From positions 1,364,001-1,428,000 of the forward strand of contig NZ_CP101824.1 in assembly GCF_024498195.1 (NCBI RefSeq): a DNA stretch of 64,000 nucleotides, read 5' to 3'. The notes beneath the pieces are model-generated. The model was given only the letters and a program-made list of their open reading frames with translations. It was not told where the DNA came from and did no database searches. A program made the translations under genes and the position numbers. Within the stretch, counting starts at the first letter, position 1. The number at the start of each line of letters is the position of its first letter. This document shows, piece after piece, positions 44,497 through 54,533 of the stretch. This DNA is from Halovivax cerinus (GTDB lineage Archaea > Halobacteriota > Halobacteria > Halobacteriales > Natrialbaceae).

Positions 44497-44506
44497 TCGA
44501 CGGGGC

Positions 44507-44547
44507 TCGCTCCGTTCTCGAACGCGGGTCGCTCCGTTCTCGACGGG
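44507..44547. repeat. 22-bp tandem duplication
   Basis: tcgctccgttctcgaacgcg starts at 44507 and recurs with changes at 44529, directly after the regulator gene. Confidence 0.55.
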
Positions 44548-44636
44548 CCACTCCGCATCCGAATCGATTTCAATCCGTTCCCGAATCGGGTTCCGCGTCC
44601 GTGAATCGGTCCTCGTGTTCGTCCGAACCGATCTCG

Positions 44637-45332
44637 CTACGCGTCCGATTCGATCCGAGCGCGCTGCTCGCGGAGGAACTCGATCACTGCGTCGATCTCC
44701 CGTTCGGGAACAGTTCGCCGTTCGAACACCCCCTTGAACGCGTCCGCGAAATTCTCGCCGGTGAGTCGTTCGAGGACGATCTCGATGCGATCGGCGAGTT
44801 TCTCGGGGGCGCCGCGGTGGAGGTGGCTGGCGACCCGGTCGAAATCCGCACTCGTTGCGAGTGCGACTAGATCACGGGTGTCAGCTCGGCGACCGCTGTG
44901 GAGTTTCAGCGCGAATAGCAACTCCCGCTCCGGAATTTTCGCACGTATCGGGCGGACGGTTCGAAGTTCCTCGCTAACGGCGTGTTGTAGCAGGTACCGA
45001 TAGGACCACTCGGCTTCGGTCTGTCGACAGCCGAGGACGTCGACCATCGCGTCGACGTGAACGGGGTTCCCGACGTCTTTCTCGTACCGAACGGTCCGAC
45101 CGTCGTACAGCGCGTTTCGCTCGAAGTCGGCGATGTTCTCGTACCCGCAGTCGGCGAGCAGTGACGTGTAGTCGTCCACCACTCGGCCGGGAACGACGAG
45201 GTCGACGTCGGTCGTGAACCGCTGGTCGAACGCTGCGATCGCCCAACCGCCGACCAGTACGTACGGCAGATCGGCATCGATGATGGTCTCCAGCGTCTCA
45301 AGCAACGCCGCTTCGCGGTCGCCCACACTCAT
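44637..45332 (-). CDS. AbiEii-like nucleotidyltransferase toxin
   Basis: The 231-residue protein has the minimal nucleotidyltransferase motif VGGWAIAAFDQRFTTDVDLV (residues 27-46), with GGW at 28-30 and the metal pair Asp42/Asp44. A downstream ALKLHSGRRADTRDLVALA motif matches the AbiEii/AbiGii pattern K...R.xDxxDL. These enzymes act as toxins of type IV toxin-antitoxin systems and can give abortive phage defence. Its ATG overlaps the TGA of the upstream gene (ATGA), so the pair is coupled. The C-terminal half is helical. It could also be a housekeeping nucleotidyltransferase, but the gene pair supports a toxin. Confidence 0.75.
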   Translation of the reverse strand: MSVGDREAALLETLETIIDADLPYVLVGGWAIAAFDQRFTTDVDLVVPGRVVDDYTSLLADCGYENIADFERNALYDGRTVRYEKDVGNPVHVDAMVDVLGCRQTEAEWSYRYLLQHAVSEELRTVRPIRAKIPERELLFALKLHSGRRADTRDLVALATSADFDRVASHLHRGAPEKLADRIEIVLERLTGENFADAFKGVFERRTVPEREIDAVIEFLREQRARIESDA

Positions 45333-46003
45333 GGTCGGAGGCAGGGATCCTCGTGAGAGGCATCGACGTCGAGGTCGTACGCTTCGGCGAGTTGTTCCAG
45401 CGCGGGTTCGTAATTCACCCGGTAGTCCAGCATGTGATCGACCGTCTCTGCCAGTGGGACGACCGGATACCCGTCGACCCACTCGCGCGTCCAGTCGTCG
45501 GAGTGTGGGAACAACACGTACGAGATGCTCGCGTCGAACTCGGCCGGGTCCGGACGCGTCTCGATCGTACTCGGTATCCCGAACTCGTCGAAGAACGCCG
45601 TCCATCGACCGACGTCTCGCTCGTCGACGCGAACGAATATGGGATAGTCGTCGGGCCCGCGAGCGATTTGATAGCCGCCGTTCGTCCAGACGTACACGGC
45701 GTCGATCTTCGTGTACGCGAAGGGCAATCCAGAAAAGTGCGGCACGAGGTAGGCTTCGTCTCTCCCCGGCGCCGTCGAGCGGGAGATGGTGGCGACGAGG
45801 TCGTAGCACCGCTCCCTGACGGCGTAGTTTTCGACGTAGACACCGTCGTCCCGCCGGACGAATTCGGCGGATTCCAGGCGTTCGATCCAGTCGTACACCC
45901 AGGAGTAGGAGCCGTCGACTTTCTGCGCGATCCGTCGGATCGAGTCGCCCGGCCGAATCGACAGCAGTATCTTCGCGGCGGTCGCATCGACGTACTCCAG
46001 CAT
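45329..46003 (-). CDS. AbiEi-like winged-helix antitoxin/regulator
   Basis: The 224-residue protein has an N-terminal winged helix (about 5-65; IRRIAQKVDGSYSWVYDWIE is its recognition region). A C-terminal domain of about 150 residues contains YPIFVRVDERDVGRWTAFFD. It precedes the nucleotidyltransferase and overlaps it by 4 bases, exactly the order of AbiEi antitoxins that repress their own promoter. A TATA-like ctatattag (46029-46037) lies about 30 bases before its start, with an inverted repeat between them that could be the operator. Confidence 0.72.
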   Translation of the reverse strand: MLEYVDATAAKILLSIRPGDSIRRIAQKVDGSYSWVYDWIERLESAEFVRRDDGVYVENYAVRERCYDLVATISRSTAPGRDEAYLVPHFSGLPFAYTKIDAVYVWTNGGYQIARGPDDYPIFVRVDERDVGRWTAFFDEFGIPSTIETRPDPAEFDASISYVLFPHSDDWTREWVDGYPVVPLAETVDHMLDYRVNYEPALEQLAEAYDLDVDASHEDPCLRP

Positions 46004-46014
46004 GCGTGACTATC

Positions 46015-46025
46015 GGTATTGTACC
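46015..46025. promoter_or_regulatory. Possible operator of the AbiE-like operon
   Basis: ggta-ttg-tacc is an 11-base inverted repeat between the TATA-like box and the start codon at 46003, the place expected for autorepression. Inferred only from symmetry and position. Confidence 0.35.
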
Positions 46026-46028
46026 TAT

Positions 46029-46037
46029 CTATATTAG
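46029..46037 (-). promoter_or_regulatory. TATA box of the AbiE-like operon
   Basis: ctaatatag on the minus strand, about 30 bases upstream of the ATG at 46003. Confidence 0.5.
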
Positions 46038-46291
46038 CGTTACTCCGAGATATGGGGCGCAATTTCGGATATGTGGTGTAGAGTTATCGGTATAGAAATA
46101 TTCTCTGTGGCTGACTGGACCGACCGATCGCGACGGCTGGTCGCTTCAGTGAACGGCTTCGCCTGTAGAACGCGTGTCCGAGCGCGTAACGCGGTCGGCG
46201 TCGATATCCGCGGGCACGTCTCGGGGTTGCTGGCGGTTGGGTCCGGATCACGACTGCACATCCGCCGCCGGAGACCATCACAGCGACACGA

Positions 46292-46328
46292 GGAGCACGC
46301 CCACGGCTTCAGCCGTGAGAGGGTGTCA
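46292..46328 (+). mobile_element. Possible IS605/IS1341-type right-end remnant
   Basis: A perfect 7-bp stem cacggct/agccgtg with a 2-base loop (46302-46317) is followed by gagagggtgtca. This pairing of a gct-tc-agc hairpin with a terminal tgtca resembles the right ends of haloarchaeal IS200/IS605-IS1341 (TnpB) elements as I remember them. No transposase or TnpB gene is present. The tgtca end supplies the stop codon (46326-46328) of the minus-strand epimerase. A simple hairpin terminator is the alternative. Confidence 0.4.
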
Positions 46329-53235: not shown

Positions 53236-53673
53236 CTACACACCTGTTTCGCGAAATCGAACGACGTCGATCTCGATCGGACACGATTCGAAATCGTCGT
53301 CGGCACCTGCGACGAGCGTCGCATCGCTCTCGCGGGCGAGCGCGACGCCGTGTGCGTCCGCAAACGAGATGTGGCCGCCCGCCTTCACTTCGGCGGCGAG
53401 GCGCCAGTCGGCTCGCTCGATCGTTACTCCCCACCGTTCGAGCGCACGGAGATCCCGATCGGCCGTACGAAGCGAATCCGTCGTCGGCTCGTCGTCGACT
53501 CCTTCGAATCGAGCGACGAGATAGCGCACTTCACCGGCGTTGGTCTCGGCCAGCAATCCGTCGACGGCTCCGTCACGGACCTCTCGAAGGTACCGTTCGA
53601 CGACGACCCGGCCCGGTTCGTCGTAGAGATACGCGATGATCGCTTCGGTGTCGAATACGTACGCGTCGCTCAT
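53236..53673 (-). CDS. vapC: PIN-domain toxin (VapC-like)
   Basis: The 145-residue PIN-domain ribonuclease keeps the acidic active-site set Asp8 (YVFDTEAIIAYL), Glu43 (LAETNAGEVRYL), Asp106 (SFADAHGVALA) and Asp125/126 (VAGADDDF). VapC toxins cleave RNA when freed from their antitoxin. It overlaps the AbrB-like antitoxin gene by 4 bases (ATGA) and follows it, the usual VapBC layout. Length is typical of the family. The target RNA is not deducible. Confidence 0.88.
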   Translation of the reverse strand: MSDAYVFDTEAIIAYLYDEPGRVVVERYLREVRDGAVDGLLAETNAGEVRYLVARFEGVDDEPTTDSLRTADRDLRALERWGVTIERADWRLAAEVKAGGHISFADAHGVALARESDATLVAGADDDFESCPIEIDVVRFRETGV

Positions 53674-53975
53674 TCGTCCGCTCCGTCGGTCGGTCGGAGC
53701 CGCTCGGAACGGGCTGCGTCACGCTGCTGTTCGTCGCGTTTCAGTTCGCGAACCCTGTCGAGTACCTCGCCGCGCTCGCGGTCCGCGTCGGCGTGGATCC
53801 CGCCCAATTCCTCGAGCGACGGTATCGGCTCGACGACGATACGGTCGTCTTCCTCGTAGATGAACACCTCGCCGGGAGCGTCGATCCCGAACTTCTCCCG
53901 CAGCGACTTCGGAATCGTCGCCTGTCCCTTCTGCGAGACGCGTACGACCTCTGGGTCCCGAGTACTACTCGACAT
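53670..53975 (-). CDS. vapB: AbrB/SpoVT-type antitoxin (VapB-like)
   Basis: The 101-residue protein has an N-terminal AbrB/SpoVT DNA-binding domain (about 10-52; VSQKGQATIPKSLREKFGID). An acidic helical tail (about 55-95) is where relatives bind and block the PIN toxin. It overlaps the toxin gene. The antitoxin or the complex usually represses its own promoter; a palindrome lies 6 bases before the start codon. It sits between a degraded regulator and a truncated epimerase gene. Confidence 0.85.
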   Translation of the reverse strand: MSSSTRDPEVVRVSQKGQATIPKSLREKFGIDAPGEVFIYEEDDRIVVEPIPSLEELGGIHADADRERGEVLDRVRELKRDEQQRDAARSERLRPTDGADE

Positions 53976-53981
53976 TATGTA

Positions 53982-53992
53982 TTGTACTACAA
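53982..53992. promoter_or_regulatory. Candidate vapBC operator palindrome
   Basis: ttgta-c-tacaa is an 11-base inverted repeat immediately upstream of the vapB start (53975). Its position suits autoregulation by an AbrB-type antitoxin; this is inferred from symmetry alone. Confidence 0.45.
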
Positions 53993-54020
53993 GACCATCG
54001 TATTACTATCTATCGCCGGA

Positions 54021-54533
54021 CGCCCCGTCTCGACGTACGGGACGCAGATGCTCCTGCGCGATCGGTACGCACAGCTGTGGCACGACCGCCACGGCGTCGC
54101 GACCGTTCCGCTTCGATACTGCAACATCTACGGGATGGACGTGGCGGGCGAGACACTGTGCGGCCTGCCGGGGACGTTCGTCAGACAACTGACGGCGGAC
54201 GGCTCGATCACCGTCTTCGGCGACGGCCGCCAGACCCGCGACTTCGTCCACGTCGACGACGTCGTCAGGGCGACCATCGGCGCCGCGACGACGCGACGGG
54301 TTGGTAAGGCGTACACCGTCGGGAGCGGGGAGTCGACTTCGGTGCGGACGGTGGCTCGACTCGTTCGCGACCACGTCGATCCCTCGGCCGAGATCGACTT
54401 CGACGAGGAGTACGACGGTGCGGTTCGAGACAGTCACGCCGATATCTCGAACGCTCGGGCGTGGCTCGACTTCGAACCGACGCGGTCGATCGAGGGGTGT
54501 CTTGGGGATCGGATAGCGGGGGTGTCTCGGTGA
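54021..54533 (+). pseudogene. Truncated NDP-sugar epimerase/dehydratase, C-terminal half
   Basis: From 54021 the frame encodes STYGTQMLLRDRYAQLW, then VPLRYCNIYG, SITVFGDGRQTRDFVHVDDV and a normal C-terminal part, all typical of the back half of extended SDR sugar enzymes. The N-terminal Rossmann half is missing, and the catalytic YxxxK reads YGTQM, so the lysine is lost. It starts right after the vapBC promoter, suggesting truncation by arrival of the TA pair or by deletion. It is unlikely to be active. Confidence 0.75.

Follow-up and report, generated by a model that had tools for sequence, protein, structure and literature searches.

A divergent AbiE/MenAT-like gene pair of haloarchaea: a probable toxin-antitoxin module

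Introduction

The window analysed here, a stretch of 64,000 nucleotides from Halovivax cerinus, contains a gene for a winged-helix protein followed by one for a nucleotidyltransferase (NTase), and a first-pass annotation made from the sequence alone took the two for an AbiE-like toxin-antitoxin (TA) pair of type IV. This raises the question of what the pair is, and of what it does for the genomes that carry it. On the comparisons set out below, the pair is probably a TA module. The fuller account, that of an AbiE/MenAT-like two-gene module forming a divergent family of its own and serving mainly in plasmid maintenance, also seems likely. AbiE identity was right in part: architecture, gene order, overlap and NTase motifs agree with it, but the AbiEii match lies below the cut-off and a match to AbiEi profiles is absent. 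The label 'type IV', which means a toxin and antitoxin that work without contact, goes beyond what sequence can show. Nor are archaeal examples wholly as little studied as had been stated. The PygAT pair of Pyrococcus yayanosii is described as a functional TA system (PMC11375011, PMC5126054), and archaeal AbiE is covered by a 2026 survey (PMC12988326).

A gene pair conserved in haloarchaea

The two open reading frames (ORFs) at 44637-46003, their strand and the ATGA in which the stop codon of the winged-helix gene overlaps the start codon of the NTase gene are as originally annotated (Table 1). ORF length is weak evidence for genes in this case, since the DNA is GC-rich and holds many overlapping spurious ORFs. 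Both are nonetheless taken as real genes because many genomes conserve the two proteins jointly and their divergence covaries; the correlation of distances between the two proteins is 0.985 over 93 unique pairs, a figure inflated by shared ancestry. These 93 unique relatives also underlie the residue conservation given below. The four-base overlap is the commonest arrangement among them (48 of 93 pairs). No Rfam elements were found between 42.5 and 50 kb in the window.

Table 1. Features of the gene pair and its surroundings, in window coordinates.
Feature	Position	Strand	Basis and remarks
Winged-helix protein gene	46003..45329	-	ORF, 224 aa; putative antitoxin and autorepressor
NTase gene	45332..44637	-	Sequence, 231 aa; putative toxin
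ATGA, stop/start codon overlap, 4 bp	45329..45332	-	Sequence
Predicted DNA-binding winged-helix segment, about residues 10-57	45833..45976	-	Pfam HTH matches, model
C-terminal domain of partner, about residues 80-210, putative neutralising	45374..45766	-	Profile comparison with A7/A8-family partner
NTase motifs I/II GGWAIAAFDQRFTTDVD, residues 28-44	45201..45251	-	G29, R38, D42 and D44 invariant in 93/93
CRQT motif, family-specific, NTase residues 102-105	45018..45029	-	Invariant in 93/93
NTase motifs III/IV KLHSGRRADTRD, residues 143-154	44871..44906	-	Invariant residues given in text
Promoter-proximal ATACCGATA site, candidate operator	46011..46019	-	-16..-8 from start codon
TATA-like TAATATA	46030..46036	-	Sequence; 27-33 bases ahead of start codon
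Second ATACCGATA site	46085..46093	-	Where relatives have TATCTGTATAGAGATAAC-type sites
Pair-bearing segment, absent from G004 and G003	44497..46325 (bounds approximate)		BLAST alignment

Of 41 genomes in an initial set, 10 contained the NTase, which its partner adjoined in all cases except a fragment. A profile search then found the pair in 136 of 392 Halobacteria genomes, a patchy distribution. Named genomes yielded 80 loci; Halobacteria account for almost all of these, the outliers belonging to Thermoplasmata and Diapherotrites. A winged-helix gene lies directly upstream of nearly every NTase relative. Canonical AbiE, recognised by AbiEi_4 or AbiEi_1 together with strong AbiEii matches, is also found in haloarchaea but as a family separate from the window pair. 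Strong matches to it occur in about 27 of 194 genomes, so that the window family is the commoner of the two in the Halobacteria sample.

Fold and catalytic residues of the nucleotidyltransferase

Profile searches for AbiEi and AbiEii went against the original assignment: the NTase scores 17.6 bits against the Pfam AbiEii/DUF1814 profile (PF08843), below the cut-off of 22.5, and the partner has no match. The same profile matches 13 of 24 NTase relatives at E<=0.1 (best 2.3e-6). The AbiEii model of PADLOC matches the window NTase weakly, at 13.9 bits, and an NCBIfam search gave nothing useful. Further sub-threshold Pfam matches are to NTP_transf_5, DUF6036 and Aminoglyc_resit, the last at 17.1 bits against a cut-off of 21; the distant relative L071 scores 24.

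The model of the NTase built from an alignment with 24 relatives has a pLDDT of 92.7. Its best PDB match in Foldseek is MenT1 of Mycobacterium tuberculosis (8an4, E 3e-8), which also heads a profile search of the PDB (E 2.7e-7). The top Foldseek ranks are MenT1, TglT/MenT3 and Helicobacter pylori JHP933. By model and profile the enzyme is nearest to MenT1, MenT3/TglT and proteins of the AbiEii family.

A different reading of the same matches is that the NTase is a beneficial enzyme, for example one that modifies an antibiotic or a metabolite, with the winged-helix protein as its local repressor. Aminoglyc_resit and NTP_transf_5 match 23 of 24 relatives, although mostly weakly, and ANT(2'')-Ia and LnuA are among the Foldseek matches. 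These last, however, are outranked by MenT1, TglT and JHP933, and some likeness to antibiotic NTases is to be expected, AbiEi too having antibiotic adenylyltransferases as structural neighbours (PMC7319586). A beneficial enzyme should moreover outlast the loss of its repressor, and intact NTases that lack the partner are essentially never seen (see below). We regard this reading as quite improbable.

The GG...TDVD and K..R..D..DL motifs singled out in the first-pass annotation are present and do not vary across the relatives. Measured against motifs I-IV of AbiEii as defined by Dy et al. (PMC3985639), the family has motifs I-III and, apparently, only part of motif IV. The signature of motifs I/II, hG[G/S]...DhD, is present with the Arg of motif II, at a GG-to-DxD spacing of x12, compared with x15 in AbiEii and x9-13 in pol beta. 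The motif III lysine has hydrophobic flanks (L-K143-L-H-S-x-R148). In motif IV, D151xxD154 is invariant, but the residue before it is A, T or P and never K/R. K143, H145, S146, R148, D151 and D154 are without variation in all 93 unique NTases.

The conserved residues also correspond to R76, S78, K189 and H191 of MenT3, residues that have been discussed for that enzyme and of which S78 is phosphorylated (PMC11375011). The position of S78 is taken by residue 40, two before the first catalytic Asp and either Ser or Thr in 93/93 unique relatives. By our alignment of the spacing, it would also be the position of T39, which is phosphorylated in MenT1 (PMC11375011). Fold, catalytic residues and a Ser/Thr two before the first catalytic Asp are thus all found in the NTase as they are in MenT.

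The winged-helix partner

The partner of the NTase matches Pfam HTH_23 barely above the cut-off, and nothing else in it is recognisable. Neither the window protein nor any of 32 partner relatives has a match to an AbiEi family, among the families listed; no PADLOC model marked it as AbiEi, its matches there being weak ones of CARF/CasR type. The structure model (pLDDT 86) shows two domains, a winged helix at the N-terminus followed by an alpha/beta domain that has no Pfam match. In a Foldseek search with this model the winged helix dominated the matches, and neither AbiEi nor Rv2827c was among the best 50. The protein is of winged-helix type and has no HEPN match, which sets the pair apart from HEPN/MNT TA systems.

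Haloarchaea have another pair of winged-helix protein and AbiEii-like NTase, here called A7/A8, and the profile of the window partner aligns with that of the A7/A8 partner at 95% probability across 167 columns spanning the HTH and the C-terminal domain. Against AbiEi of the canonical haloarchaeal kind, alignment is confined to the HTH (29% probability). This suggests that the partner belongs among the two-domain proteins that accompany AbiEii-like NTases, a grouping that stops short of AbiEi membership. By eye the C-terminal domain gave the impression of a degenerate copy of the NTase itself, but profile comparison assigned this a probability of only 0.8%.

Comparison with known systems

With AbiE (AbiEi/AbiEii, COG5340-COG2253, a type IV TA system; Dy et al. 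2014) the pair shares an operon in which the winged-helix antitoxin comes first, NTase motifs I-III, an Arg four residues ahead of the first catalytic Asp, repeats at the promoter and a mobile or plasmid setting. It differs in the sub-cut-off score of the NTase, the GG-to-DxD spacing (12 rather than 15), the want of a basic residue just before DxxD and a partner that AbiEi profiles leave unmatched. Aligned with canonical AbiEii over 133 columns, the NTases of the window family have their motifs in register, at a low probability (25%). Canonical AbiE identity was rejected on the profile comparisons.

The MenAT systems of M. tuberculosis (MenT1, MenT3/TglT) provide the best structural and profile match of the NTase, and R-x-(S/T)-x-D-x-D and K-x-H are conserved, the phosphorylated Ser/Thr position included. 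Identity is nevertheless only 16-23%, MenA1 is unrelated and a partner of MenA3 type was not detected by sequence. The A7/A8 pair (L151, L152, L173-L178) resembles that of the window in its partner, as described, and its NTase passes the AbiEii cut-off, but the NTases of the two families align at motifs III/IV only and the A7/A8 pair is less common in the sample. PygAT, by its description, is likewise an archaeal two-gene pair of antitoxin and NTase, the latter of DUF1814 type, and is carried by a mobile island (PMC5126054, PMC11375011). A literature search for NTase TA systems on haloarchaeal plasmids found nothing specific.

The family has diverged beyond the reach of current models for AbiE detection, and is common in haloarchaea. 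PADLOC-based surveys may miss it because of the weak AbiEii match and a partner unmarked as AbiEi.

One-way dependence in the occurrence of the two genes

Both proteins were located by profile in 393 genomes of the phylum, and 18 questioned loci were read to confirm the calls. All but one of the 33 intact NTases have an intact partner upstream; the remaining one, in G590, has a divergent partner. The converse does not hold. Intact partners number 55, of which 32 accompany a full-length NTase, 6 an NTase remnant only, and 17 stand alone. This one-way dependence is the strongest new evidence obtained here and fits a toxin with its antitoxin, though it supports toxicity only indirectly.

The losses counted here are not independent of one another. 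On the partner tree the state changes between pair and loss at least 10 times, although well-supported branches force only 3, and NTase losses cluster in two lineages, those with TTGCACA- and GTTACC-type promoters. A binomial p of 3e-6 for one-sided loss is accordingly too small, since it treats the losses as independent. Outside the set of 393 genomes there is one exception: in Haloquadratum walsbyi J07HQW2 (L090) an intact NTase is left with the last 22 residues of the partner. This NTase may be silent, because the promoter of the pair has been lost as well.

Solo winged-helix genes are common, so the winged-helix protein may have a role of its own. It could, in particular, be a regulator of the plasmid backbone, acting in replication or partition, with the NTase an optional accessory dependent on it, and the Orc1/Cdc6 or ParA genes near the pair on plasmids would agree with this. 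However, the promoter that contains the conserved sites is that of the module itself (see below), both genes are kept in chromosomal copies remote from replication genes, that of the window included, and the clade of the window (lineages I and II) keeps the pair in 25 of 26 sampled rows. A backbone regulator is thus very improbable. One clade of solo winged-helix genes (L188, L189, L191, L192, L195 and L202) has a common plasmid context in different haloarchaeal genomes; its members are candidate anti-addiction genes.

Promoter and candidate operator sites

From the position of the TATA-like element the promoter would appear to be leaderless. In relatives something AT-rich likewise stands at this distance from the start codon. 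Their upstream regions fall into lineages with differing sites between this element and the start codon: GTTGCACA...TGTGCAAC, GTTACC...GGTAAC or, farther upstream, sites of TATCTCTATAGAGATA type. In most group I relatives, as in the window, ATACCGATA occupies -16..-8. The window has three copies of ATACCGATA compared with 0.10 expected, and 46085-46100 is its sole place within three mismatches of TATCTCTATAGAGATA (0.01 expected). These conserved repeats and palindromes are candidate sites for autorepression by the antitoxin.

Across the relatives, whose sequences are related, promoter palindromes exceed those of shuffled sequences (Fisher p 0.001), while the best upstream palindrome of the window is no better than in shuffles (p=0.77). 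The inverted repeat GGTATTGTACC that the first-pass annotation had pointed to at 46015-46025 does exist, yet at least one such match occurs in 18 of 100 shuffled windows. Being at chance level and not kept by relatives, it was rejected as the operator; its GGTA...TACC overlaps the first ATACCGATA site by accident.

A possible mode of action

Taken as a TA module, the pair might work as follows. The NTase would be an enzyme of DNA-polymerase-beta type, harmful when unrestrained, that moves nucleotides from NTP to cellular RNA; by analogy with MenT1 these could be added to tRNA acceptor ends, so that translation stops. RNA or tRNA is offered as the target only tentatively. The winged-helix protein would repress the operon at the ATACCGATA sites around the promoter, and its C-terminal domain would neutralise the NTase. 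Neutralisation might proceed through NTP-dependent phosphorylation of Ser/Thr 40, as in MenT1/MenT3, although control through this residue, which again is argued by analogy, is somewhat doubtful.

In favour of a TA reading are the one-way dependence, the fold and profile nearest to MenT1, the invariant catalytic residues, the alignment of the partner with that of A7/A8, an operon with the putative antitoxin first and mostly with overlapping genes, the conserved promoter sites and the signs of horizontal spread given below. Several observations weigh against it, namely the sub-cut-off AbiEii score, the likeness to NTP_transf_5/Aminoglyc_resit, the partner without AbiEi match, the exception in H. 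walsbyi, the non-independence of the loss counts and the lack of a strong palindrome in the window promoter. Were the module confirmed, it would provide a testable NTase toxin for haloarchaea, a tool for work on plasmid stability and a comparison for the targets of MenT-like toxins in archaea.

Plasmid context and the chromosomal copy

Relatives are present in 59 plasmid records, annotated as 'hypothetical protein' or 'nucleotidyltransferase family protein'. Group I relatives, 93-100% identical across many genera, have a plasmid backbone in common with an Orc1/Cdc6 gene and an ArdC-like (anti-restriction) gene. Others adjoin ParA, and VapC (VapBC) or AbrB genes also occur nearby. The plasmid records, the identity within group I, the Orc1/Cdc6 or ParA neighbours and an empty site (see below) together point to horizontal spread.

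AbiE systems are capable of abortive infection (Dy et al., PMC3985639) and the distribution of the family is patchy, as might be expected of a module that is primarily anti-viral. The neighbours are instead genes of plasmid replication and partition, VapBC and anti-restriction genes, a context which points to plasmid maintenance. Phage and viral contig collections contain no relative, which has weak bearing on host defence; carriage of the pair by viruses was rejected on the same result. A primarily anti-viral system is improbable, and any role of the pair in phage defence unlikely. The preferred reading is that the family mainly maintains haloarchaeal plasmids, the window carrying a copy acquired by the chromosome. 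A more elaborate version is rather unlikely: an unnamed archaeal branch of MenT/AbiEii type might serve as plasmid addiction modules, its NTase modifying tRNA or other RNA, while the many solo antitoxins would act in anti-addiction, so that such plasmids could be shed by their host or through a rival plasmid.

The window copy lies between a gene for a TrmB-type regulator and genes for sugar epimerases. Two congeneric relatives (G004 and G003) have these flanks side by side without the pair, and in G004 121 bp separate the aligned flanks compared with about 1.86 kb in the window. Could the window copy be a decaying passenger, at present inactive? It is solitary on the chromosome, the site that it occupies was recently gained, and its own genome also contains a winged-helix relic and, from a related pair, an NTase gene, both of them broken. 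On the other hand, both window ORFs are intact, every catalytic residue is kept and both promoter sites are present; decay is distinctly unlikely.

Of the two broken genes, the winged-helix relic (L179; G000:C1:830409-830612) is related to the window gene; next to it are an HTH gene of HVO_A0114-like type and one for a small protein, which may be another TA pair. The NTase comes from the genome's second AbiEii-like pair, one of a different family (L152; G000:C1:70131-70697), the winged-helix partner of which is intact at 204 aa. In this NTase motif I is lost (G to D), the reading frame is no longer kept and there is an internal stop.

A perfect hairpin, CACGGCTGAAGCCGTG (46302-46317, minus strand), stands next to the stop codon of the epimerase gene, where the inserted segment has its edge. 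Together with its surroundings, about 45 bp in all, it is found again with 82-88% identity, mostly in unannotated stretches of haloarchaeal plasmids, and the region is possibly an insertion-sequence end. Elsewhere in the window, a gene for a PIN-domain (VapC-like) protein (53236-53673, minus strand) lies within a polysaccharide/sugar-nucleotide cluster, and a predicted epimerase ORF (53793-54533, plus strand) matches the Epimerase profile in its C-terminal half only (137-240 of 240) and is possibly truncated.
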